Positions 2,398 through 51,697 of a DNA stretch of 64,000 nucleotides are shown here, piece after piece. Below the pieces are notes generated by a model, which ran no database searches, was not told the DNA's origin, and saw only the letters and a program-made list of their open reading frames with translations. Origin of the DNA: Odiellus spinosus (Eukaryota; Arthropoda; Arachnida; Opiliones; Phalangiidae); the NCBI GenBank assembly GCA_963920705.1, contig OY987226.1, positions 7,690,501 through 7,754,500 on the forward strand, read 5' to 3'. The position numbers and the translations under genes are program-made. Numbering within the stretch: the stretch's first letter is position 1; the number at the start of each line of letters is the position of its first letter.

Positions 2398-3543
2398 AGA
2401 ATGCCTGATCTTCCAGAATTTATCTCAAGGAATGCCTAATCTTCCAGAATTTATCTCAAGGAATGCCTAATCTTCCAGAATTTATCTCAAGGAATGCCTA
2501 ATCTTCCAGAATTTATCTCAAGGAATGCCTAATCTTCGAGAATTTATCTCAAGGAATGCCTGATCTTCGAGAATTTATCTCAAGGAATGCATAATCTTCG
2601 ATAATTTATCTTAAGGAATGCCTAATCTTCGAGAATTTACCTCAAGGAATGCCTAATCTTCGAGAATTTACCTCAAGGAATGCCTAATCTTCGATAATTT
2701 ACCTCAAGGAATGCCTAGTCTTCGAGAATTTATCTCAAGGAATGCCTAGTCTTCGAGAATTTATCTCAAGGAATGCCTAGTCTTCGAGAATTTATCTCAA
2801 GGAATGCCTAGTCTTCGAGAATTTATCTCAAGGAATGCCTAGTCTTCAAGAATGTATCTCAAGGAATGCCTAGTCTTCGAGAATTTATCTCAAGGAATGC
2901 CTAGTCTTCGAGAATTTATCTCAAGGAATGCCTAGTCTTCGAGAATTTATCTCAAGGAATGTCTAGTCTTCGAGAATTTATCTCAAGGAATGTCTAGTCT
3001 TCGAGAATTTATCTCAAGGAATGCCTAGTCTTCGAGAATTTATCTCAAGGAATGCCTAGTCTTCGAGAATTTATCTCAAGGAATGCCTAGTCTTCGAGAA
3101 TTTATCTCAAGGAATGCCTAATCTTCTAGAATTTACCTCAAGGAATGCCTAATCTTCTAGAATTTACCTCAAGGAATGCCTAATCTTCGAGAATTTATGT
3201 CAAGGAATGCCTAGTCTTCGAGAATTTACCTCAAGGAATGCCTAATCTTCGAGAATTTACCTCAAGGAATGCCTAATCTTCGAGAATTTACCTCAAGGAA
3301 TGCCTAATCTTCGTGAATTTATGTCAAGAAATGCCTGATCGTCGAGAATTTATGTCAAGAAATGCCTGATCGTTGAGAATTTATCTCAAGGAATGTCTGA
3401 TCTTCGAGAATTTTTCTTTAGGAATGCCTAATCTTAGAAAATGTATCTCAATGAATGCCTAATCTTAGAAAATGTATCTCAAGGAATGCCTAATCTTCGA
3501 GAATTTATCTGAGAAATGTCTAATCTTGGAGCATTTATCTCAA
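2398..3543 (+). repeat. 31-bp satellite array, about 37 copies
   Basis: A head-to-tail tandem array with a 31-bp period: AGGAATGCCTAGTCTTCGAG followed by AATTTATCTCA. The central copies (about 2700-3120) are nearly identical. The edges carry more substitutions (TTCCAG on the left, TTTACC and TTATGTC on the right), as expected when unequal exchange homogenises the middle. Most units contain the dyad TTCGAGAA, which has the TTCnnGAA form of a minimal heat-shock element, plus an AGGAATG block. No coding frame runs through it. Confidence 0.97.
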
Positions 3544-11668: not shown

Positions 11669-12447
11669 GTAGGATTGGGCATTTTCATAATTTCGGGCGA
11701 TAAAATGGGCGGTACTTTTGCATACAACCAATTTCTTACAATGAGAGATAAATATATGTGTATTAGTTAGTCCAACTGTAATCTTATGTTTAATTGGGTC
11801 TTTTGGCCTAATTTGAAAACTTATATTATATAATAATACATATTGGAGTATTGTAAATCAAAAAGACGAATAATGTCTTTAACAAATGTTTGTAAAGGCA
11901 CCTTTGACTTTCTCTACCTCAAACCCTTCTCCTTCAATGCAGCGTATAACTATAGCGTGCATTAGAAAATAAAAGGAATTGTCTTTAAATTGGTAGAGAC
12001 ATTGTGTTTTCCCCTTATATATGTTGGTACAGCGCGTGGGTGGGTTTGGCGGATTGGTTTAGAGTGGGCAATTGTTGGGCAAGCTCTCTTTTAATTCAAA
12101 ATGGAGGGGGATTAATACGAAGGGATGGCTTGTTAATATTAAAGGAGAGAAACAGGCCCTTTTTGTGGCAAAATGTGGGCGCATCCATTAGAGATGGAGA
12201 AATGGTAAGAACTCTGGCTTTTCTTTATATAGTGGTGCGCCTCTTTAAATGCTTTCATTGGCAAGGTGCCCCTTAATGTCGGTACTTTCTTAACAATAGT
12301 AAGAAAAGTTGATTCTTACTTAATTAGCGCCGTGGTCTAAGAAGTTGGTCTTTCGAAGGCTGACAGTTTGAAAATGAATATGTATAAAATAAAGCATATA
12401 TCATAGTTTTCCTATAATATAATAAATGATCATCTATCAGTTCCATT
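11669..12447. other. Non-genic spacer
   Basis: A frame open for 90 codons at 12004-12276 (plus) has no recognisable domain. I see nothing else of note. Confidence 0.35.
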
Positions 12448-12957
12448 TATGTAGATTAATATAGCTGTTAATTTATATAAATTAATATAGTTATTAATGT
12501 AGATTAATATAGTTATTAATGTAGATTAATATAGTTATTAATGTAGATTAATATAGTTATTTATATAGATTAATATAGCTATTAATTTATATAGATTAAT
12601 ATAGCTATTAATTTATGTAGATTAATATAGCTATTAATTAATATAGATTAATTTAGCTATAATTTATGTAGATTAATATAGCTATTAATTTATGTAGATT
12701 AATATAGCTATTAATTTATGTAGATTAATATAGCTGTTAATTTTTGTAGATTAATATAGCTATTAATTTATGTAGATTAATATAGCTATTAATTTACGTA
12801 GATTAATATAGCTATTAATTTATGTAGATTAATAAAGCTATTAATTTATGTAGATTAATTTAGCTATTAATTTATGTAGATTAATGTAGCTCTTAATTTA
12901 TGTAGATTAATATAGCTCTTAATTTATGTAAATTAATCTAGCTATTAATTTATCTTT
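12448..12957 (+). repeat. 22/26-bp AT-rich tandem array, about 20 copies
   Basis: The tandem unit is built around GTAGATTAATATAGCTATTA. In the left part (about 12480-12560) the period is 22 bp. Further right an extra TTTA block gives a 26-bp period. The array ends abruptly at about 12957, next to an imperfect inverted repeat (12983-13084). Confidence 0.9.
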
Positions 12958-13084: not shown

Positions 13085-14419
13085 TGTCCCAGTAATAATG
13101 AAATCCCTAGAATATTTAAATTTGAAACATTTATTTCGTGATTGAAGTCCTAAAGACATTTTCAAACTATGTCAGGTTATACCTATAGTCAAATGCGAAC
13201 TAGACTCACCCTTAGGTGCGTAACATATACACAGTCTATATGCGCTATATAAAATTTCCGTATAAACTCGTAGAACTACTTTAGAGAGATATCTAGGACC
13301 CCCTATTTGAATAAAGAGCCTAACTTGAATGTTTTACGGCTGACGGAGCAAAAGTCAATATCAGGAGACACCCCTGAATACAAAATTGACTTTCCACTAG
13401 GTTGGCTTGAAATTGAAGCTATAGATGCGCGCGCCTCCAATAAATCTAAAGTAAATTCCCTTCTTATACTTGTATAGACATCGGAAAAATTAAAATCATG
13501 CGGGTTGCGTGACTAATTTAGAGTAAATAATTGTATTTGTGAGTTAAAATCAGAGTTTGAGACACAATTAGCATGATCTATGGGTTAATTACAATGTAGA
13601 TCTAGACGTATAATATAATAAAAAATCTACTACCCAGTCCAAGGTTCTGAAAAACGTAATAGAAACGTTCTCGTACAAACTTATTTACTCACCAAGGCTT
13701 TTGTAGAGATATTACTTGTCTTAGTAAATTTTATATTTATAATCTGATCTGATTAATCAGGTAGAAATGATTCGATAACTAAAGAAAACAGGTTAAATAT
13801 AAATACACTTCACCAATGACATGATTAAAAAAAATAGAAAATACATTAAATTGTTCATATGTGACGTAAGAACATACGCTGTTTAATAAAACGTATATAG
13901 CGACAATTTTGAAGGCTCTAATTGGTGGGGTAACTATAATTAAGGGAGTATTCGCAGCGATTAATTCAAATACTGCTGTTTCGATTACTATCGTTTCAAA
14001 TTTGATTAAACGTAAATTAAAACACTAATTACTAAATATAAGATTTTGTAATTCTTATTCGAATATGAGTGCAGGTCGTATTACTATATTTTACATTTTA
14101 AATATGAGGTACTTAATAATTTTTATAAAAGTTGACATCCTAGGTGAACTAATTTATAATCAGAATAATGCGAATTTTCTGTAGTTTACGTTGAAAGATC
14201 ATAGATGTCGACACTGTTAAAAAAATCGCGGTTTGGGAAACCAGCAACGATAAAAGAAATAATTAGGCCCTTTTTTAAGTTTATTGAAGTAAACTCGCCT
14301 GTTTTTTTTTTTAATCTCAGTCACTTTCTGTTCGTTTAGAGATTAAAAATAAATCTTAATCTATAATTAAGAAACGAAACAAAACTTTTCATTTCCGCTT
14401 TAGCTGCTAAGGATAGTAC
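13085..14419. other. Non-genic spacer
   Basis: AT-rich sequence with no supported gene, repeat array or RNA. Confidence 0.4.
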
Positions 14420-14755
14420 CAGAAGTAGATGAAACCCTCCTTTGAAGTCTACTACTCTAATGTTCGATATAGCCCTACTCTCTGTATGGGTAAAATTTCC
14501 AATTTTACGAGATCAGAGGGGTCCTACTTCATACCCCCTGTCTACGGAAAATTGGAAATTCTCTCTCTCCACAAACGACGACGTTTTTTGACGAACTCCA
14601 AGGCTGCTAGATATATTCGCTCGACGAACTCCCGCTTCGAAAATATCTACCGTTAGGAGGCGTTCGAATCGCGCTTTTTGAAACTAACCCATACAGAGAG
14701 GGGTAGACAAGACCAGGGAGTAATAGACTTCAAAGGAGAGTTTCATCGGCTTCTG
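14420..14755 (+). mobile_element. MITE family A, copy A3
   Basis: This 336-bp copy has the orientation of A1. Its left terminus is slightly degraded (CAGAAGTAGATGAAACC) and its right end is ATCGGCTTCTG. The flanking 7-mers, ATAGTAC and AGTGTAG, no longer match well, so this insertion looks older than A2 and A4. Open frames inside it are fortuitous. Confidence 0.9.
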
Positions 14756-16618
14756 AGTGTAGTAAAAATAGGAGTAAATAAATTTCAAGCAAAAGTTTTC
14801 GTGTACACTCGTTTATATAAAACCATTCGACTTTTTTCCAGCCTTTTGTTAATTTTTGTATTTTTTTACACATTCTATATATATATATATCATTTTGTAT
14901 TACAGAACGCGTAATCGTGTGTTTAATATATTCATATATCGCGGGGTTTTTTTCTTATTTTTTTTTTAATATATATTTAATTTTTTTTTTTATGAATACG
15001 GCAACTATATATACGAACAACTTAAAAAATACAGCAAATATTTATAGTATTTTTCAACGTTAAAGTATACTAAAGATAAAGGCGGGGAAAATTCATCTTT
15101 TAACGTCATTAGAATCAATGTTTTCCCGTATTTGACTTCGATATATTATTAACGTGAAATTAAATACTATTCTTTAGGTGTTCCTTTAGTTTTTTTTTCA
15201 CTGACCACATAAAACACACAACACGATTGTTTTTATTATTTTTTTTTTTCGTTAAAAAATAAGGTAAAAAATAAGTATTTTTATCGTATTATTAATTTCT
15301 TTGGTTTCATACTTCTTTATGAATATTTTATTTAATTAAATATTCAACGCCAGTATTCTTTACGATGACTCATAGCCTTTTGAGGATTGTATTGTAAGGA
15401 TAGGGCTAATTTTTAAACATTATAAAGCATTGCATTTCTTATTCATTTATTACGGTGAAGTTTGATTTTCATAATTGTATTTAAATTTAAAAATGATTTA
15501 AAGGTAGCCTGAAGGAAAATTCAAAAGACGAGATTTGATTGGCTCGTATCTCCTCTCCGTGTATTATGCAAAAATGATGGGGGATCTGCAAGTTTTAAAT
15601 TAATTTTCGTAATTTAACTCACTTTCTGATACATTATTTTTGTTCTAATTAAAATATTTTAAGGTCTAAGAAATCTAAATATTAAGTTCCTTCAGGCTCC
15701 CTTAAACGTTAGCCTAGAAAACAAAAAGGAAAAAAAAAAAAAAAAAAAAAAAAAATATTAGGTTCAATATCTTTTTCATTACTAATAATTTACGCTAAAA
15801 ACACCAAAATTTAAATCAAATCTACTCCGTAATTATTTATCGAGAAACATCAATGCAATTTATTAATCCTATTAAGGCAAATAAATGATTTAGGATAAAT
15901 TTTCTTTTATAATCTTTGCCTAATCATTAACCTTAGATATTAATACACTTACGTAAATCTTCCCCCATTTGCTTAAAAAATTAATTAAAAAAATTAAAGG
16001 CAGGCTCATTGCTTTATAGTTAGTTATACATAGGTTAATATTATTTTTGCAAAATATAATCAGTAAAATATTTAAATTATTCAAAAATATGGGTATAAAA
16101 TTATTAAAATATTATGCTAAATATAAGTAATTTTAAAACCGCGTTACATAAAATATTTATTTATTTACATATTTATTTGTCAATTTTTTTTTTCAATATA
16201 TAATTTCACACGATTGAGAAATTTATTTCGGCTTTGGTTTAGTTAGGTTTTCTTTTTAATTGTGACCAATATTATAATTATTACGCAAAACATATATTTT
16301 AAACTAAATTCCCAATAATATACGCTTCATAAAAATATATATTAAAATAATAATAATAACCCAAAAGGCTATGGTTCAACCTTTTGAACTGGATAAAAGC
16401 ATTTAATTTTTATTTATTTAATCACTGGAATTTGACGTTACCGGTAACTATTTTACTAATACGATTTTATAAAACCTAAAGTTTTTTTTGTTTTTTATTA
16501 TTTTAAGATAGGGTCGAATAATTTGCGCGTTTTCATTTAGGAATTTAGGGATATTCTAATGTAATTTTAAGTTTAAATAGACATGAAAATCGTGAAAAAT
16601 AAAATTGGAAATACCAGA

Positions 16619-18195: not shown

Positions 18196-20220
18196 CTAAA
18201 CTTCCGTTCCTTCTAGAGCCTCTTCGGCGTACCCTTCGTCGGGAGAGTACCGTCGATCGGGTGGTAGTTCGAAATGGGCGCTGTTGGGTACAACTAAAGG
18301 AGTTCTTTTCCACGTGACGGGGGGCCCTCCGTTGGGAACTTGGGACACCACGACGGCCGGGTGTGCCGGGCTGTTGAAACTGTGGTAGCTTTCGTCCTTG
18401 ACCGAAGAGGCGCACTCTGAGCAGGAATCGGACGTCCGGCAACGTTCCGTATCACAATGAAATCCATTAGTTCCCCGGGGATTGTCCGAACCCGAGGGAT
18501 TCGTCGACGAGTGGTTGGGACCACCGTTCGACAGCGAGACCGTCGTCGTCGACAACGCGTCGTACGGTTGTTGGTAACCCGCGTTGGGAAACTCGTTGGA
18601 GTAACCGTGGTAGTTTTCTTGCGGGGCGGCCCGTCGTAGGGTGGCGGCGAAAACGGGACCCTGATAGCATTGTTCTTGCAAGTGTAGCGTTTCGCGCGTG
18701 AGGGAATCGTGGACAGGGTGGCTGTAGAGGAACGCCTTGGTCGAATAAGTCGGGCCGTTGGCGTTGTTGGCTTCGTTCGCTTTGTTCGTCAAGTCCGGCG
18801 TATGTTGATCCGAGCCGTACCCGCTGCTACCCGTTTCTTGACGCGGCGTTTTGTCCGTCGTCGTTAAGTCGTTTTGCTTTTCGGCCGTGATCTCTACACC
18901 CGTTTCTTGGCGCTTGGAAGCCAGTTGTTTCAGGATACCGACTCCGTTGAATTTGCTCTCTGTCGCGTGAATGGTTCGGTAACGTAGGAGAACTATACAC
19001 GCGACTACTACTACGATCACGATAGCCAGGAACAAACCTAAGGCGATCCCTATGATCTGAGCGTTACCCCAAGCCACCGGGACGGGCGGGGCGTAAATCA
19101 CGGCTAAGGTAAAATTGGATTCCACCACCCCGGCCGGATTCTCGGCCACGCAGACGAAGGTTCCGGCGTCTTCCAAGTCGACTTCCGTCACGGTCAAGTG
19201 ACTAACGTCGCCTTCGTTAGCCGTGACGTACTTTTCGCCAATTATATTGCCTTCTTCGTCCGTGATAGTGGAAATGTTTTGCACCGGAACGCCGTCGACT
19301 TGCCAGGAAAGGGTGGCGTCCGGAACGGCCTTGACGATACACTCGAAGGTGGCGTTTTCGCCGCGCAACGCGTTCACGATCGTGACCGACGATTCGACAA
19401 CTGGCATGCAAGCGAACTCTTGAATAGCCAGCGAAATCCACGATACGTCCCTGAGCCGACGCGGCGTTTGACACCGGGGAGGTATATTGGTCGGGATATT
19501 ATTGTTCGAGATCCATACCCGCAAATCTTTCAAGTTACAGTCGCAATGCCACGGATTGTTGCTCAAAATGAACGAGTACAGAATGGGAAGATTCGAGAGT
19601 ACGTTGCTGTTCAGAACCGTTAACTTATTGCCGTTAAGCAACAAGGTGTCCATATTGCGCAAACCTCGAAAGGCTCCCGGGTTTATTTGGTCGATTTGAC
19701 AATTGCTCAAGTCCAGGAAGGTCAAAAACGTTAAATTTCCGAACGTGTTGGGAGACAGACGGCGTATGGGATTTTTTCCCATCAGCAATCTTCTGAGTAA
19801 AAATGTGTCGTTGAAAATCGATGTTGGAACGTCGACCAAGTGATTGCCCGTCAGGTCCAGCTCTACCAAGTTGCTTAATTGGTAGAAGGCGTCGGAAGCG
19901 ATCCATCGAATAGCGCAATTTACTAAGTAGATTTTCTGCAAGTTTACTAGTTTGCGATTTTGAAAGATTAGCGACGGTAACTCGCCGATGTTGTTTTCGC
20001 TCAAATCGAGTACTTGAACGTCCGGATTGATTCCGGTCGGTACGGAAGTGATGTTTTGGTTTCCACACTCGGCCGTTTGCTTCCCGCTCTTCCATTTGCA
20101 GGAACAGGGAAAGGGACAGCCCGGCGAAGAACGGACGCAAGGAGGAACCAGGCACAGCAGCAACAGTAGCAGCAAGACCACTAGCGTAGAAGCGCTACCC
20201 GGTGGAGGAACTGGTTGCAT
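18196..20220 (-). CDS. Kekkon-family LRR/Ig single-pass membrane protein
   Basis: Seen: a 674-residue intact frame. A signal peptide with a leucine run occupies residues about 12-31. An LRRNT cysteine cap follows (CPFPCSC at 35-41, C52), then about six or seven leucine-rich repeats (about 68-220) and an LRRCT cap (NNPWHCDCNLKDLRVW, with C226, C228, C250 and C271). One Ig domain (about 274-376) has C294, W306 and C357 in DAGTFVC. The transmembrane helix is at about 388-412, followed by a cytoplasmic tail of about 260 residues containing GSSGYGSDQHTPD and ending in GTEV, a class I PDZ-ligand motif. Known: this architecture is the insect Kekkon family; fly Kek1 binds and inhibits EGFR and others modulate BMP or neurotrophin-like signalling. 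Inferred: a cell-surface receptor or adhesion protein. I cannot decide which kekkon paralog it is. The whole frame is in one exon, and it is clearly richer in GC and CpG than its flanks. The start has A at -3 and opens directly into the signal peptide. Confidence 0.96.
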   Translation of the reverse strand: MQPVPPPGSASTLVVLLLLLLLCLVPPCVRSSPGCPFPCSCKWKSGKQTAECGNQNITSVPTGINPDVQVLDLSENNIGELPSLIFQNRKLVNLQKIYLVNCAIRWIASDAFYQLSNLVELDLTGNHLVDVPTSIFNDTFLLRRLLMGKNPIRRLSPNTFGNLTFLTFLDLSNCQIDQINPGAFRGLRNMDTLLLNGNKLTVLNSNVLSNLPILYSFILSNNPWHCDCNLKDLRVWISNNNIPTNIPPRCQTPRRLRDVSWISLAIQEFACMPVVESSVTIVNALRGENATFECIVKAVPDATLSWQVDGVPVQNISTITDEEGNIIGEKYVTANEGDVSHLTVTEVDLEDAGTFVCVAENPAGVVESNFTLAVIYAPPVPVAWGNAQIIGIALGLFLAIVIVVVVACIVLLRYRTIHATESKFNGVGILKQLASKRQETGVEITAEKQNDLTTTDKTPRQETGSSGYGSDQHTPDLTNKANEANNANGPTYSTKAFLYSHPVHDSLTRETLHLQEQCYQGPVFAATLRRAAPQENYHGYSNEFPNAGYQQPYDALSTTTVSLSNGGPNHSSTNPSGSDNPRGTNGFHCDTERCRTSDSCSECASSVKDESYHSFNSPAHPAVVVSQVPNGGPPVTWKRTPLVVPNSAHFELPPDRRYSPDEGYAEEALEGTEV

Positions 20221-21804
20221 TTTGGAGTATTGGCTACGTAAACAAGTACAAAAGAAATTAAATTACTACTGGTTCCTAACCGTTTGTAGTGATCAAATGA
20301 TATTTAAAACCGAAAGTGTGACTAAGTAAATAAAAGGCTATCCATAAAAAGTCCATAACATACTCCATAAAGTAATTAACGACTTATAGTAGCGTTACTA
20401 GCGTAACCCTATTCTCAAACCGAAGTGTTGACGTCATAGTTAATCTAACTTGATGGGGCCCGAGTTGAATTCAGGGGCCAGGGTCACGCATACTTGATTT
20501 CCCTCCCACTACAGAAATTCTTCGATAGAGGCCCTTCCCAATTCAATACTTACGCTAACGCCAGCCACTTTGGTGTCTGAAATCAATCGCACCCCTACGC
20601 GGATAAGATTACTCTGCTGGATATTAATTACAAAACTTTTTACAGCAGACACTAAATTTAGACTATAAACAAAAATTTTACAGAAGTTAATTTAATAATT
20701 ATAGTTTTTTACTTCATCACGTGACTTAATGAATCACGAAACCCCATATACCAAAACATTTAAACTTGAGTAACCGAAAACCTACTGCATATGAACGTGA
20801 CTTAGATACTAGCTCGGAAAATATATAGCTAAAGTTAGTTTGGTTTTTGTCATACTCACGATTTAATAGTACATTAACAAAGATAAAACGTATATTCACC
20901 CTTTTTGTCTTTTGTGAGCAAGGGCTACCCGTTTGTGGTTTGAGGAAGGTTTAAATCCCGGTTGAGCAGCATACCTCGGGTTGATATCTGTCTGTGAGAG
21001 AGAAAAGAATTCCAACCATTAACCAAAAAGGTATTTTTCGCTTCAACCCCTAACGAAACAAACTCCAACACTTCCAAAAATAAAAAGTTAGCTAATTAGG
21101 TTTTGATAAGATTAGCGCGTGATATTTCCTTCTCATGGTCAAATAGGAGGTAAGAACGGGATCTCAATTTCGTTTCGCCAAAGAAATATCTCCCAATGGT
21201 TTGTTTATAGCTTCTGTTTCCCCCTCTCTCGGGATATCTAGAAAATACGTTCGACTTTTGATTCAACTCGAACTAAACATTGTAGGGGATAGATTTATTA
21301 ACCATTCACCCTACCAAGTTTTCTCCTTCCCCTATCATTATAACATTGACACAAATACGTTAAACATAGTGTTTGCTTAAAGATGATAATGAAAATAACC
21401 CCATGGCTTGTTGTATAAACACTTATATTTAACCCAAAACAAAGATTTCTCGGCGTTAACCCAGAGTTCGCGGACATTCATTATTTCGAGTTTAGTTAGT
21501 AAGGCTTAACGAAGAGAAAAGGAATGGGATTGGTAGAATCATTTGGTAAATGACCCAGCTTCTTCACGAGGGAAAGTTTATTTCGTATTAACGGGCTGTT
21601 CGCGGACACCGTTACGACTTTGACCACGTTACCGTCGCGACAAATCCCTAGTACGCGATGGAGCCATTCTAGATCGTCTTTCCAACTGGCTGCTCTCTGA
21701 CATTCGTCCTCGTTAACGGACAGTCCCGCGAGGGCCTTTGTGCGCTGGCCGCCTATAGTAGGATCTAGGACCCAAAAGATCTAAGAATTGGACGGTGAGG
21801 GTTG

Positions 21805-24095: not shown

Positions 24096-26266
24096 GTAAT
24101 AAATATAAATAGTTTTCTAAAGGATCTTTTCGAAAATTCGACTCAAATTACATAAGATTTTCACGAGGAATTATTAACAGAATTGATTTAACTAAAACTA
24201 ATCGAAGTATTCGAAGAATCTTAATTTAATTTCGATCATATTCCAGTAGGCGTATATAATGAATATATTAGAAAAGACGTCGTTTTAATCCACTTCCTGC
24301 TAAATTTCGACACTAACATCAATAGGAACTACGCGCGTGTGTTCGATATTTTAAGTCAATAAAATAGATTGCTTGTGGAATTTAAATCAAATAATACCAC
24401 TAGCTTTATGCTCACTGAAAAATTAGCCGGATCTGAGAGAATATGAACCTCTCATATCTAGAGGGCGAAACTTTAAATCACATCTAAGGGATTAACGTGA
24501 GGTGGGTTGATAGCGCATGGACTTCTACCCACCCTTATTCTCTATCCTTTTCCTCTTTTAAAGTCTCTCTTTACCAATACCTTTATATAGTTAACCCCTT
24601 TTCAAAGAGCTGAAGCGATGCATTTCATTTCAAGTCTAGTTTTCACTTGGTATTAAAGGAAGAATGAATCCGAACCAGTTATTTTCTATCGATTCGTTAA
24701 AAGCCTAAGATTTCTTCTGGCTGTCACCTGCCTTTTTCACTGGAAGTGGGCTCACCTTCTGAGTTTCCTATTGGGTAGCAAGGCAAGAGAAAGCATGGAG
24801 GGCGAGTTTGTGTCTAGGGTGACAGACAGAAGTAATCCTAGGCCTTTAACCTTGAAATACGCGTAGTTTATTAATTTAAAAATACAAACAAATAATGTTT
24901 GAAACACTTATTTACTCGGAAAGTAGGCTTAACACGATTGGTTCGAGAATTTAAAATCTAGCCGAATCAGATCCTATACGAAGCAACCAAAATGTATTCA
25001 CAATTATAAGGGCTCTCTCAAATTAGAGAATGACCTTCTGAAGGGGCCTCAAAACGTTTACTACAGCGTCGGGGTCCCGAGATAAAGTAAATAGCCCTGA
25101 GCCTTCTGTACTTAATCCGTGTCTCCTTCTCATCACATGATTGGCCGGATTAGGGCACGGATTCAGACAGATTTCAAACTTACAATAAGTCTGTGTTAAA
25201 GAGAGGGTGAAGATTATAAAGGGAAACTTGGAGCTAAAAATATAACAGCTTTTCAATTTATTTAAGAATGCCTTTCGAGTATATTAAAAACTAATTGGTA
25301 ACTTGATATTCGTTTCTAAATTTAATTACAATTGATCTAATTAAGCAATTAGAAAAATAACTTGTTGTCCGGTTTCATTCTCTCTTTAAGACCGATTTCT
25401 AAGCTTTCAAATCTTAATTTATAAATGATTAGAAGCGCTAACTTACGGACGTGGTGATAATTTGGGTTGAATCTCTATTTTAAGCCTTAGCTAGTCTCTC
25501 ACGAATTCATTCTAAACTATTCGAGCCAATATAATCTCTATAGGATAGAATTATTATTATTAATACAGCCTCTTTTCCGCGTATGACATCGTGGTCCTAT
25601 TGTGTAAATTAAGGTTTCTGAGGTAAATTTTGGAACGATAAAATAGTATATTGAGAGCTCGGTGAACTCGTCCGCGTAGATAAGGGCTATCTTAGGTTAG
25701 TATAGCGTTCACCGTCTCTCGACAGGTGATACGGTCGCCGAATGAAAGACGTCAACTTACCAGAGGCGGAGTATTCATTCGAAACCTTAATATTACGCAC
25801 TCAAAAGTGATAATCTGCAAAGCGAAATTCCCTATGGATTTATTGGTAATTTTAACAAAAGTCCCCGGTCCTTCAGTATAGATTCTCTCCCGCAAGTCTC
25901 TTCTCTCGGACGCGCGTGGTTGAATATTTCGCGAATTAACTGCTTGGAATGAATTGGATACTGCAGTGGGGATTTTAGTCTCTCGTTTAAGTAGATATAA
26001 ATTCGTTTATTTCCTCGTAAAACTGCTGCTGAATGTTAATTCATAACGCGAAGATTTCTCGGATTTCAATATATCTTTTTTGCGTTTTTTTTTTTATTTT
26101 AGTAATATTTATTTAATTTAGGCCAATTAATCGGATGACACGTGAACTCTAAACCTATTTGACTAAGATATAATTTTATTATCAGATATAAAAAACAGTA
26201 CATGGCAATACGTTAAGTTTTTTTTTAATAAATATGTATTTTATCAGAATTAATGTGGGGGAAATA
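24096..26266. other. Non-genic region with MITE fragments
   Basis: A GTAGGCTTAACACG module of the family E interior lies at about 24.92 kb. A family D left arm (AAAGGGAAACTTGGAGC) is at 25218-25262. A family E-like right end (TTTCATTCTCTCTTTAAG) is at about 25373-25390. I see no coding frame or RNA gene. Confidence 0.4.
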
Positions 26267-26282
26267 ACCACTTGATGTAGTC
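26267..26282 (+). repeat. Target-site duplication, left copy
   Basis: ACCACTTGATGTAGTC. It matches 26511-26526 at 15 of 16 positions and flanks the 7SL-like retroposon. Confidence 0.9.
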
Positions 26283-26510
26283 GGGAGTGGTGGCGCACTC
26301 CTGTAAACTGGCGTTTCAGTGGCAAGGTCTGGGTGTTGTCCTGCTCGGATCGCAGGTCCCTTGCCCATAGGGAGTGTTGCGAATGGTCCGCGACGGAATG
26401 GTCCTTCATCTTCCCCATTCCCATCTCCTTCCGTCGCGTGGGCAATTCCCAGTCCTCATCCCTGCGTAGTTACGTACCATACCTGGGCGCCGCTGTAGCT
26501 AATAAAAAAA
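26283..26510 (+). mobile_element. 7SL/SRP-RNA-derived retroposon (SINE or SRP RNA retrocopy)
   Basis: Seen: a GC-rich 228-bp insert ends in an A-rich tail (AATAAAAAAA) and is flanked by a 16-bp direct repeat with one mismatch, the signature of target-primed retroposition. The 5' part reads GGTGGCGCACTCCTGTAA, closely parallel to the Alu-domain start of SRP RNA (GGTGGCGC...CCTGTA). GGATCGCAGGTCC follows at 26347-26359, where SRP RNA has a GGATCGC...GTCC box. The 3' part has CCTGGGC and TGTAGC before the tail, as expected for the 3' strand of the SRP Alu-domain stem. Internal stems CGCGACGGA/TCCGTCGCG and TTGCCCA/TGGGCAA are perfect. The TGGCGCACTCC word can serve as a pol III A box. Missing: the S-domain helix 8 core, and the total is shorter than a usual SRP RNA of about 300 nt. 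Inferred: a retroposed, internally deleted SRP RNA or a 7SL-type SINE rather than the working SRP RNA gene. Confidence 0.75.
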
Positions 26511-26526
26511 ACCACTTGATCTAGTC
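26511..26526 (+). repeat. Target-site duplication, right copy
   Basis: ACCACTTGATCTAGTC, directly after the A-rich tail of the retroposon. Confidence 0.9.
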
Positions 26527-43690: not shown

Positions 43691-43836
43691 CAGAAGCCGA
43701 TGAAGCCCTCCTTTGAAGTTTATTACTCCCGGGTCTTGTCTACCAATCTCTGTATGGGTTAGTTTCAAAAAGCGCGATTCGTACGCTTTCGAACATTAGA
43801 GTAGTAGACTTCAAAGGAGGGTTTCATCGGCTTCTG
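43691..43836 (-). mobile_element. MITE family A, copy A4 (internally deleted)
   Basis: This 146-bp copy keeps both termini (CAGAAGCCGATGAAGCC and ATCGGCTTCTG) and a perfect 7-bp target duplication, TTCAGAC, at 43684-43690 and 43837-43843. About 190 bp of the interior is missing. At the junction GTACGC and GAACATTAG are separated by TTTC, which is not found at either breakpoint in A2. Confidence 0.95.
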
Positions 43837-47124: not shown

Positions 47125-48593
47125 ACTATATACCCATGTTTATAAAATGAGACGAGGTGAGCTGTGAGGTGGTTTTTAGGGCTAGGTTTAGAATCATCAC
47201 TATTTCCTAAGGAAATATTGGACAGGTTTTTTTTTATTCGTTACTTTGGTGGTTGATGTATAGGGAACTCAATTGGGTGAGATCTCGGAATAAAGCCAGG
47301 TGTTTCTAAAAGCTCGAGTATGTAGCAACGAACAGCCTTAACGGTGAAATGATTGTTTTATTGTGGGTGAAAAAAAAAGGGGGGGGGGGGGACTTCATGG
47401 GGTACCGTTGGTTGGTTGAAGATATTTTTATTGGATATCGATACTATAAGTATATGGGATACGCGATTTTAACACGCTACAAACCTTTTCATGAACTTCG
47501 AAAAAAAGGTGCATGATAATCCATTATATTTTGTGAAACAACAAAGAAACCTGATGATTTTATGGGAGAGGATGTTTAATATGAATTAAGTGTTTTTTTG
47601 GGTAGATTTTTGTTTTGCAAGTTCCTTCTTAGATGTGGTTGGGGGTTTTTTGTGTTGATCAGAGCGTTTATAGACCGAGTTGGAAAATATCACTTGATAT
47701 GATGTAATCACTTGCTAGATGTGTCTGCAATCTAAATCCAAAAGACGGGTTAAACGACTGGGATTAGTAATTAATCCAATGGCAATTCGATCTATAACAG
47801 CTCTGCTGTTAATTCCTTTTTATTATTGTGAATCTGTTGGTTGAATTTTATAATATCTAAACTTATAAATCTATTATTGACTTTTATATCTATATTACCT
47901 CAAAATTTTGTATATTACTCGTGTGGTTTCGGCATCTTATTTGTGCACATGCACGTTTAAAGTAGACATTCAACCTGACTCATTTCTGGCCTCGTCAGAT
48001 TGGTCCTAGATTGTTCACTGTCGCCATATTTTAATGTTATAAGTAACCGGCCTTAGAACATACCACCCTCTTAAACTTAAGTACACATTTTGTGCAAATC
48101 ACTTAATAAATTCATATTAACATCTGGCTACATTTTCTACAGGCCTAATTGTAAATATTTGATCTGGGGAACACCCCGTTTTGCAAAATTTCATCAAAGA
48201 AACGAATTTCTTGCATTTTTATGCTAAAACCACTTCTTATCATCAATCCACTTAATTCCGATGACTTCCTGGCTATCCAATTTCAACTTTCTTTTTTAAG
48301 ATGACTTTAACTAACCAAATTTGGGACTGGTTAGTATTCTTTAGATGAAGCTGAAGATTGTGGGTTCAAATGACGCGTGTGACCCAACATCTTTTGGTGC
48401 ATTTGTCCTCCATCCTAATTGTGTTTGGTTCATCCTCCTGTTTGTGGTGAAACTTCATTGTCTCTTTATTCTTTTATGTAAAGTATTCCACCTACTCTCG
48501 TTGAAACCTCTTCACTTAATCGTTGGTAAAAACCTCAAAACCTTCCTCGCAAATAATTAGGATTGTTAAATTTGTCCACAGATTTCTTAAGTC
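47125..48593. other. Upstream flank of serpin 1
   Basis: It holds a G12 run at about 47.38 kb and AT-rich sequence. A possible splice acceptor (TTTGTCCACAG, ending at 48581) lies 12 bp upstream of the first serpin start. The gene may therefore have an untranslated upstream exon that I cannot locate. Confidence 0.4.
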
Positions 48594-49784
48594 ATGGCTC
48601 ACAACAAAATTGGGTTGAAATTACTTGCAAAATGCAGGGAGATGGAGATTGATCTCGAGAAAAATATTTTCATATCACCATTGAGCGTATTAGTTTCCTT
48701 ATTGTCTATGGTGCACGGAACAAGGGGTAGCAGCAGGGAAGAAATCTTGAAGTTTCTGTTCGATGGCAATATCGACGTGAAAGATGAAGAGCTAATGAGA
48801 TTTACTCGAAAACTTATCGATCTGGATCACGAGTTGACCATCGCCAACGGTCTATTTCCTGACCTACGTTTCGAACACGCGTGCATTGTGGATAACGTTG
48901 AATTCTGGGAGAAATTTAAGAGGCATCAAATACCCCTGCGAATGAAATGCCTCCCTTTCGCGACCAAATTAGATGGAGCCATCAATCATATCAACGACTG
49001 GGTCGAAAGCGTCACGAATAAAATGATCAAAAATGTAATTAGTCCTGAAACTCTTAACGAATTAACGACAGTGGTACTGGTCAGCGCCTTAAATTTTGAA
49101 GGAGAATGGAGGTCAAAATTTAAGAAAGAATTTACGGTCGTTAGGCCCTTCTACGTATCGAGCACTCTAACCCAAATGGTTGAAACCATGTACCAGAACT
49201 TAAACTTCAAGCTCGTCTACTGCGAAGAGCTTGACTGTCGAGTTTTGGAAATTCCGTACAAGTGCGTTGATTCTAACGGAAAGTGGCATATCGGACACGT
49301 TATAATGTCTTGCCTGATTTTTCTACCCAATAAAATGGATGCCTTACACTACCTTGAGAAGAAGTTGACCACGGGGCTATTCTTAGACGCCGTCGAAAGG
49401 TTGAAATCGAGTCGTGCGCACTATCAGGTTCATTTATACCTGCCCAAATTTAAGATTGAGTACGAATGCAACCAGTTTAGCCATGTTTTGCAAAGTTTAG
49501 GCATTAGGGACATCTTTCAAACGGATAGAGCAGATTTTAGTGGATTTAGCTCCGAAATCCCGCGAGATTTTCACATCACCAATGCGATTCACAAAAGTAT
49601 TTTTGAATTCAAAGAGGAATACACCGAAACCCCGGCTGGATATGCGGTGCAATATTGCGGAGGCTCAGGCAGCCCTGTTGAAAAAGAATTTAAAGTTGAT
49701 CATCCTTTCATGCTTGCTCTTTACCATCACGTGAAGAAGACCATTCTTTTCATTGGTTCGGTTAAAAAAATCCGCACAATGTAG
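48594..49784 (+). CDS. Intracellular serpin 1 (atypical hinge and shutter)
   Basis: Seen: a 396-residue intact frame in one exon, full serpin length. NIFISPLSV (24-32) is strand 6B and helix B. INDWVESVT (133-141) is the helix F motif. LVSALNFEGEW (162-172) is strand 3A. DIFQTDRADFSG (306-317), IHK (332-334) and VDHPFMLALYH with ILFIGSV (368-390) complete the C-terminal core. The start is secure: an in-frame TAA at 48588-48590 lies between the putative acceptor and the ATG, and G is at +4. There is no signal peptide, so it is expected in the cytosol. Odd: hinge residues 341-351 (EEYTETPAGYA) have Tyr in place of P15 Gly and Pro at about P11. The shutter Asn is Ser164. The scissile region is YCGGSGSP. 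Known: inhibitory serpins need a small-residue hinge, so inhibition is doubtful. AATAAA at 49969. A tandem paralog follows 764 bp downstream. Confidence 0.96.
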   Translation: MAHNKIGLKLLAKCREMEIDLEKNIFISPLSVLVSLLSMVHGTRGSSREEILKFLFDGNIDVKDEELMRFTRKLIDLDHELTIANGLFPDLRFEHACIVDNVEFWEKFKRHQIPLRMKCLPFATKLDGAINHINDWVESVTNKMIKNVISPETLNELTTVVLVSALNFEGEWRSKFKKEFTVVRPFYVSSTLTQMVETMYQNLNFKLVYCEELDCRVLEIPYKCVDSNGKWHIGHVIMSCLIFLPNKMDALHYLEKKLTTGLFLDAVERLKSSRAHYQVHLYLPKFKIEYECNQFSHVLQSLGIRDIFQTDRADFSGFSSEIPRDFHITNAIHKSIFEFKEEYTETPAGYAVQYCGGSGSPVEKEFKVDHPFMLALYHHVKKTILFIGSVKKIRTM

Positions 49785-50507: not shown

Positions 50508-50548
50508 GAACCTCATTCAATCGTGAATAGCTTCATTGCGAACCGAAT

Positions 50549-51697
50549 ATGTCTCACAACAGCGTAGCTATCAAATTATTTTCTAAAATGCTAGAACGTG
50601 ATCCGGAAGGCAACGTGTGTGTGTCTCCTTTGAGTGTCACAATCGCGTTGATTTCATTATCTTTTGGCGCTCGTGGAAAGACCAGACAGGAGATCACTCA
50701 ATTATTAATGAATTCGGTATCCGAAGATGAAATTGAGAACGGTGAAATAGTTCGACTCGCTACGAATTTCAAGGACTTTCGAATGGCCATTCGCGTTTCA
50801 AACTTGATTTTAACTGACCAGATCGATGTCATCAGCGAAACCTTCCACTCCAATTTCGGAGAGACTGGTTTGCCCCTGGAGTTCAAACTCGTGGATTTCC
50901 ATAATTCCAAAGACGCGCTGAGACAAATCAACGAATGGGTCGATTTTTCAACCGCGTTTAATATACCCGATTTTCTGCCTTCCAATCGTTTGGCGGATGG
51001 AACGAAGCTACTGTTGGTCAATTCTGTTCATTTTGGTGCTAAATGGAGCGTACCGTTCGACGAAGATACAGCCAAGAAGGTGTCTTACAGCGTCTCCCCG
51101 ACTAAACACCGAGTGGTCGACCTCGCTGTTCTTTCACACGCGGTTCGTACAGTATTGTGCCACCATTTACTTTGTCGCGTCTATGATATGTCTTTCGAAG
51201 TGTGCGGAGTCTCTTGTCTGTTTTTCTTACCCAACGAAGTCGACGGATTGCCATATGTAGAGAGTAACTTTACTTTGGAAGTATTTTTCGAGGTTGTGGA
51301 ACACCTCCAAGCCAGCGAGCCGAGGGAAGTCGAATTTGGCTTAGCCGAACTCAAATTCGAGTATTCGACGAGTCTAAAGGACATATTGAAAGATTTGGGA
51401 GTCCAACAAATTTTCCAGGCCGGTCAAGCGGATTTTGGCGGGTTAAGCTCGGGTCTACCAGCGGATTTTCACGTATCCGATATTGTTCACAAGGTGCTTA
51501 TTGACATGAAATTTAGAGAAGTCGAAGCGAGCGCCGCTTCCGGGATTGCGAAAGAGATTACCAACACGCCACCGTACTTGACTTTCAAACTTAATCGTCC
51601 TCATGTCTTCGTGATATATCACTGGGACAAACGAACCATTTTGTTTATAGGGTCCTTCAAACGTTATCCCAATTATTTATTAGGTAAGGTAAAATGA
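50549..51697 (+). CDS. Intracellular serpin 2 (tandem paralog)
   Basis: Seen: a 382-residue intact frame in one exon. It opens MSHNSVAIKL, parallel to MAHNKIGLKL in the neighbour, and has NVCVSPLSV (22-30), INEWVDFST (127-135), LVNSVHFGAKW (156-166), GVQQIFQAGQADFGG (284-298), VHK (313-315) and LNRPHVF with ILFIGSF (348-370). An in-frame TAG at 50528 fixes the start. No signal peptide, so cytosolic like its neighbour. The hinge KFREVEASAASG (321-332) keeps the small P12-P9 residues and the strand 3A Asn158, but has Glu where P15 Gly is usual. The loop then runs through IAKEITNTPPY and appears about two residues longer than in alpha1-antitrypsin. This copy looks more capable of loop insertion than serpin 1, but the P1 residue is uncertain. 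The C terminus has an extra tail (KRYPNYLLGKVK). AATAAA at 51903. The pair arose by local duplication and is well diverged. Confidence 0.96.
   Translation: MSHNSVAIKLFSKMLERDPEGNVCVSPLSVTIALISLSFGARGKTRQEITQLLMNSVSEDEIENGEIVRLATNFKDFRMAIRVSNLILTDQIDVISETFHSNFGETGLPLEFKLVDFHNSKDALRQINEWVDFSTAFNIPDFLPSNRLADGTKLLLVNSVHFGAKWSVPFDEDTAKKVSYSVSPTKHRVVDLAVLSHAVRTVLCHHLLCRVYDMSFEVCGVSCLFFLPNEVDGLPYVESNFTLEVFFEVVEHLQASEPREVEFGLAELKFEYSTSLKDILKDLGVQQIFQAGQADFGGLSSGLPADFHVSDIVHKVLIDMKFREVEASAASGIAKEITNTPPYLTFKLNRPHVFVIYHWDKRTILFIGSFKRYPNYLLGKVK

Follow-up and report, generated by a model that had tools for sequence, protein, structure and literature searches.

The insert and its surroundings

The window analyzed here is a stretch of 64,000 nucleotides of DNA, drawn from a genome of 443,074,358 bases (~443-Mb) in 286 contigs. 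On the forward strand it contains two adjoining serpin genes (48591-49781 and 50531-51694), each consisting of one open frame (PF00079, with E-values of 7.5e-75 and 1.5e-69, respectively). The reverse strand carries a long open frame at 18199-20262 with leucine-rich repeats and an Ig domain, which we take to be of the kekkon type. Tandem arrays are found at 2399-3543 (37 copies of a 31-bp unit) and at 12445-12953 (20 copies of a 26-bp unit). A repeat family of ~340 bp is represented at 204-570, 1254-1591, 14412-14773, and 43691-43836, on both strands and with 90-96% identity, and its ends match each other inverted, in a MITE-like manner.

The subject of this report is a GC-rich insert that spans 26280-26511, A-rich tail included, and is flanked by a direct repeat, as the initial annotation of the window had described. 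It belongs to a multicopy SINE, as an older copy of the short form, and no second copy of that SINE is present in the 64-kb window. Most sampled copies of this SINE have GCCGGGAG as their first letters, and the start of the window element was therefore set at 26280. The target duplication is then 14 bp long with one mismatch. Its left arm, AACCACTTGATGTA (26266-26279), is contained within a 21-nt direct repeat, and its right arm, AACCACTTGATCTA (26510-26523), has its first two A letters in common with the tail. The duplication of 16 bp (15 of 16 matching) proposed initially is hence real but shorter, with GTC representing the first letters of the element, although a duplication of 16-17 bp is possible if the window copy lost its first 2-3 bases.

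On the forward strand, the insert begins with a head at 26280-26326 that corresponds to the 5' Alu domain (H2-H3-H4) of 7SL RNA with its TGTAA turn, as delimited by comparison with the SRP model and with the 7SL genes of this genome. The two strands of an H5-like stem are found at 26325-26341 (5' strand, from the SRP model and fold) and 26440-26456 (3' strand, from the model, the fold, and a duplex test). Between them lies a central body (26342-26439) that is not recognizable as 7SL, harboring a 10-bp hairpin (CGCGACGGAA/TTCCGTCGCG) and a B-box-like word at 26343-26351, which reads GCTCGGATC in this copy. The short-form 3' end occupies 26457-26502, carries a small deletion in comparison with other short-form copies, and terminates in GGGCGCCGCTGTAGCTAA; the A-rich tail, evident from the sequence, follows at 26503-26511. 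A CCTGGGC word at 26482-26488 had been read as an SRP-like strand, but this word spans the small deletion, and both the model and the fold pair GGGCAATTCCCAGTCC at 26440-26455 instead.

In an Rfam covariance-model scan, Metazoa_SRP (RF00017) matches 26280-26458 on the forward strand at 36.3 bits, with an E-value of 5.6e-8 in 401 bases and of 8.9e-6 across the whole 64-kb window, where it is the sole match with E < 0.02 among 12. At the standard cut-off the scan is empty, the score being lower than the gathering score of 70, such that the search suggested by the initial annotation gave a match that is significant within the window and yet falls short of the family threshold. Elsewhere in the genome, five intact copies reach 42.9-43.4 bits, and the window copy is therefore a decayed form of an element with a closer likeness to SRP RNA.

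A family of dispersed copies

A DNA search of the genome returned 416 first-look candidates; the 40 that were scored all have 97-100% identity. Exact matches to a 25-mer of the head number 208 across the genome, and matches to a 34-mer of the head, with up to 3 mismatches allowed, number 336; the reversed control of each word occurs nowhere. The copy number of the family is probably in the hundreds. The 25-mer had no matches in the genome_contigs and viral_contigs collections.

Among the 40 loci, 37 have a form of 293 bp followed by an A run, one of them with a 12-base deletion, and the remaining three (the window copy, L002, and L016) have a shorter form. The A runs in the first 30 loci are 8-43 letters long. 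Target duplications of 12-16 bp, counted without a shuffle control and with leading A letters that are indistinguishable from the tail, flank 37 of the 40 loci; 29 of these 37 are 13 or 14 bp in length, and 10 contain one mismatch. The rule used left L015, L017, and L039 without a duplication, and another rule, applied to the first 30 loci, missed L015 only. The insertion sites are all different except for one that L007 and L008 have in common, as if a single segment had been duplicated there. The family thus presents the general features of a SINE, namely many dispersed copies, A-rich tails, and different target duplications. This is the outcome that the initial annotation had said a search of the source genome would give for a SINE, and its proposal of retroposition is upheld by the tails and the duplications.

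On contig C1 (G000:C1:17770761-17832487), six exact head 25-mers lie on one strand at a spacing of ~12-14 kb, as if one SINE sat inside a large tandem duplication.

Two forms and their 3' ends

The SINE is found with two kinds of 3' end, ...ACGCCG(A)n and ...CTGTAGCTAA(A)n. The head consensuses of the long and short forms differ at 1 of about 206 positions, beyond which the 3' ends differ. This is most simply read as a swap of the 3' end on an otherwise preserved head and body. Copies of the short form (n=9) have a mean divergence of 2.67% from their own consensus, as compared with 0.62% for the long form (n=50), although 37 of these 50 were best-scoring hits, which biases their apparent youth upward; the 5'-truncated L078 and L083 were dropped from this set, and L080 and L081 were not entered. 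The family is young.

Sites carrying one of the tails were also fetched. Seven of 17 further short-tail places were collected, and all seven are copies of the short form, one of them 5'-truncated. Another 16 tail places, picked by eye among the first 100 of 181 because they lacked an exact head 25-mer at the expected distance, comprise 13 full-length SINEs, one that is 5'-truncated, one with nt 165-293 only, and one chance word. No LINE with either 3' end was found among these 16 and seven places or the other collected loci. At L081 (G000:C1:20510963-20512200), SINE nt 165-293 are present and an exact head word lies ~2 kb from them in the same orientation; this is perhaps a SINE split by a later insertion.

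Relationship of the head to the genome's own 7SL genes

Of 2761 first-look candidates for 7SL genes in this genome, 26 were scored with RF00017, and these reach 202-228 bits. Twenty-four belong to a tandem array on C4, one is at C4:17139609, and one is at C6:18170368. The array itself (G000:C4:16573823-16627229, with L065 as one unit) runs on one strand with a mostly ~457-bp spacing and contains 46 places with the 7SL 5' word.

When the long-form consensus is compared with three of these genes (both single genes and one array unit), nt 1-47 of the SINE match each of them at 35 of 47 positions, ungapped and in register from nt 1. The agreement is higher in nt 1-27 (23-24 of 27) than in nt 28-47 (11-12 of 20). 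In helix 3, the words GGGAGT...ACTCC are common to the SINE and the genome's own 7SL RNA, and the metazoan consensus differs there. The best non-SINE 47-mer in 659,168 letters (both strands) reaches 26-27 matches, as opposed to 35 for 7SL, and none of 100,000 letter shuffles reaches 35, the best having 27. The filter that defined non-SINE 47-mers dropped sequences with the SINE word or with GGGAGT at positions 4-9; the histogram is empty between 28 and 32, and the filter therefore leaves the gap unchanged. A chance match to the SRP model is rejected on the whole-window E-values together with the 47-mer and shuffle comparisons. The Alu-domain-like start that had been suggested for the insert is thus confirmed, by the model match at 36.3 bits as well as by the agreement with the genome's own 7SL genes.

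Beyond the head this relationship is lost. BLAST similarity to the genome's own 7SL genes stops at nt 27-37, and neither nt 48-179 of the SINE nor the 3' strand of the H5-like stem has a BLAST match in the three genes. The segment from nt 50 to 304, searched alone, matches no Rfam family up to an E-value of 10. Five sequences that have little beyond 44-57 nt of 7SL head reach 37.9-42.4 bits in the SRP model, and most of the 43 bits of the SINE therefore come from the 5' domain. Comparison with the species' own SRP RNA, which had been advised, accordingly bears out a relationship for nt 1-47 and not for the rest. The internal deletion of the S domain that had been postulated is not shown, as the sequence after ~nt 47 is unlike that of the genome's own 7SL genes, and a chimera fits better.

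Pairing and predicted fold

In a six-row alignment with five distinct rows, which are few and related, each of the 12 pairs that make up H2, H3, and H4 is a standard one in every row, and 3 of the 12 are changed on both sides. The window copy, too, keeps all 12. If the partners are slid by 1-3 columns, pairing falls to 33-52%. In 500 shuffles, the percentage paired was reached once and the covariation score once; the two-sided pair count of 3 was reached by 69 and the pair-type count by 399. The conservation of Alu 5' pairing between the SINE and 7SL is support, not proof. The TGTAA turn and the 5'-domain pairs are kept in the SINE.

The H5-like stem is formed in the long-form consensus between nt 45-62 and nt 158-179, with 15 pairs and an energy of -23.9 kcal/mol, compared with -10.2 (sd 2.9) for shuffles, none of which was as good in 2000. 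Taken alone, nt 1-179 of one copy (L010) are predicted to fold as H2/H3/H4 plus H5 (z of -2.9, 0 of 200 shuffles). In the predicted fold of the full-length sequence, H2 is lost in favor of pairing with the 3' end, which speaks to some extent against its being stable in the long RNA.

Other isolated 7SL heads

At 54 places in the genome, the 7SL 5' word can be found with 3 mismatches or fewer. The C4 array accounts for 46 of them and the single genes for two; of the remaining 6, five were fetched. In three of these (L089, L090, and L093), 44 nt of 7SL head lie within a larger segment that has been duplicated as a whole; the resemblance extends into the 5' flanks, and retroposition therefore does not explain these copies. 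The other two, on C17 and C2 (L091 and L092), share ~48 nt with 7SL and 57 nt with each other, after which unrelated sequence follows. The C17 head also matches C2:3884214, C2:9622642, C9:877809, and C2:7148710/7150329 over 44-59 nt, and the C17 body has no other match among 40 scored. These isolated 5' domains may be pseudogenes, small RNAs, or other chimeric elements. As they place 44-57 nt of 7SL head before unrelated sequence, capture of the domain may recur in this genome.

Origin of the family and alternative explanations

The family is, in our judgment, very probably a non-autonomous SINE with a head from the 5' Alu domain of the host's 7SL RNA, a foreign body, and exchangeable 3' ends that terminate in poly(A). 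The body that follows the head, with its H5-like stem, is not recognizably 7SL, and the element is therefore called a chimera with a 7SL 5' domain. We give roughly even odds to the fuller proposition that this is the first 7SL-headed SINE outside the vertebrates, one that arose independently in a chelicerate or myriapod through capture of H2-H4 (nt 1-47) alone, with the missing H5 strand rebuilt from unrelated sequence. If this is true, it would point to the SRP9/14-binding 5' fold, rather than the whole 7SL sequence, as the feature that lets such RNAs retropose well.

The boundary of the 7SL-derived part could be drawn differently. The whole of nt 1-179, the 3' strand of H5 included, may come from a diverged 7SL RNA with its S domain deleted, like Alu, B1, and the hagfish SINE1, a reading that is compatible with a chimera and that we regard as rather unlikely. 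The 15-pair H5-like stem is rightly placed for such an origin and has a GGGCAA word on its 3' strand, and in the hagfish family described in PMC7245038 the 3' part is likewise the weaker in sequence similarity. Set against this are the dissimilarity of nt 48-179 to the three own 7SL genes, the lack of an Rfam match for nt 50-304, and the other sequences of this genome that have only the first 44-57 nt of 7SL and then unrelated DNA.

Far less plausible is an origin from tRNA (SINE2) or from another RNA polymerase III transcript, with the likeness to 7SL due to chance or convergence. The B-box consensus is GWTCRANNC, and the word GCTCGAATC at nt 64 of the SINE consensus is one mismatch away from it, which favors such an origin, as does the limitation of the BLAST likeness to 7SL to nt 1-37. 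However, ARAGORN found no tRNA in the window or in seven loci, under bacterial settings that a diverged tRNA could escape, and the 35 of 47 matches in register from nt 1 stand well above the chance maximum of 26-27. A tRNA-derived head was judged improbable on the match to the genome's own 7SL together with the ARAGORN result, which is not conclusive alone. The A-box motif, with two mismatches allowed, fits at eight places in the first 60 nt and therefore says little, even though the initial annotation had pointed to an A-box-like word. The long-form consensus contains no TTTT.

Retroposition of 7SL itself, as a 7SL retropseudogene or as several independent retrocopies with an internal deletion, can hardly account for the family: it would explain a head that starts at 7SL nt 1, the A tail, the target duplication, and an end-to-end alignment to the SRP model, but all sampled copies have a body in common that is not 7SL, joined to one or the other of two 3' ends, the three own 7SL genes match the head only, with no continuity over the length of the element, and a one-off copy would not yield 208-336 head matches.

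For the chimeric SINE, a route of amplification can be proposed. Its RNA would be transcribed by RNA polymerase III from internal A and B boxes and would fold as an Alu domain. By analogy with Alu, as summarized in PMC7245038, this fold might be bound by SRP9/14 and so be carried to ribosomes, where a LINE tolerant of A tails could copy the RNA into staggered nicks by target-primed reverse transcription. Profile searches of the genome for SRP14 and SRP9 gave no match, and the control also matched nowhere.

Relation to known 7SL-headed SINEs

SINEs with a 7SL-derived head are defined as SINE1 in PMC7245038. That account, from 2020, places them in Euarchontoglires and hagfish, the former being the one mammal group from which they were known before the hagfish family, and it leaves open the status of families of full-length 7SL retrocopies in marsupials and guinea pig. 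A later description (PMC10886601, 2024) gives primates, rodents, and hagfishes as the only known sources. An arthropod SINE1 was not found in listings of open-licence papers; repeat databases lie outside that scope and may hold an unpublished entry. The present family has a 7SL-derived head and no central S domain of 7SL. The SINE1 elements of Euarchontoglires also have in common the 3' strand (267-299) of the Alu domain of 7SL; here its place is taken only by the H5-like stem of other sequence.

The closest parallels are with the hagfish SINE1-1_EBu (PMC7245038), which also combines a 7SL head, an Alu-domain fold with compensatory changes, a 3' part that is not 7SL, and a young age, and whose target duplications (~17 bp) are similar in size. 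In the same description, however, the 3' part of the hagfish element comes from RTE elements and ends in an AAC repeat, whereas the family described here ends in poly(A) and has no LINE source that was found; the hagfish element also keeps a piece like the 3' terminus of 7SL, and here there is no recognizable 7SL 3' sequence. Alu, B1, and FLAM, the SINE1 families of Euarchontoglires, share the 7SL head and poly(A) tail. According to PMC7245038 they consist solely of 7SL sequence (1-63, 76-83, and 267-299) and are moved by L1, in contrast to the foreign body and 3' ends of the arthropod element. Ruka of ticks is a chelicerate SINE, but is described in PMC3160391 as having a predicted tRNA-like structure and is not derived from 7SL.

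An independent arthropod family of very recent age, differing in body and tail, offers another way to examine why the SRP Alu fold rides LINE machinery so well, and allows one to ask which part of the Alu domain suffices. The near identity of the copies also makes insertion polymorphisms likely, and these could serve as markers within the species.

The host genome

The initial annotation assumed an insect host, which is probably wrong. In the mitochondrial genome, COX1 and COX2 abut without an intervening tRNA-Leu(UUR), as in chelicerates and myriapods; PMC2194727 presents the location of this tRNA (L2) between cox1 and cox2 as a mark of Pancrustacea and gives the other arrangement for chelicerates and myriapods. 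The mitochondrial genome corresponds to contig C286 (L052 and L062), which is 16,074 bases long and in which COX1 and COX2 adjoin with no tRNA between them. The tRNA-Leu(UUR) lies beside ND1, and tRNA-Ile and tRNA-Gln are displaced, being called in the stretch that separates tRNA-Leu from what is presumably the large rRNA region. ARAGORN reports 27 tRNAs on this contig (the usual number is 22), of which two extras are again Leu(taa) and none lies between COX1 and COX2. Finally, TTAGG repeats are present at three of the nine large-contig ends examined, namely both ends of C2 and one of C1.
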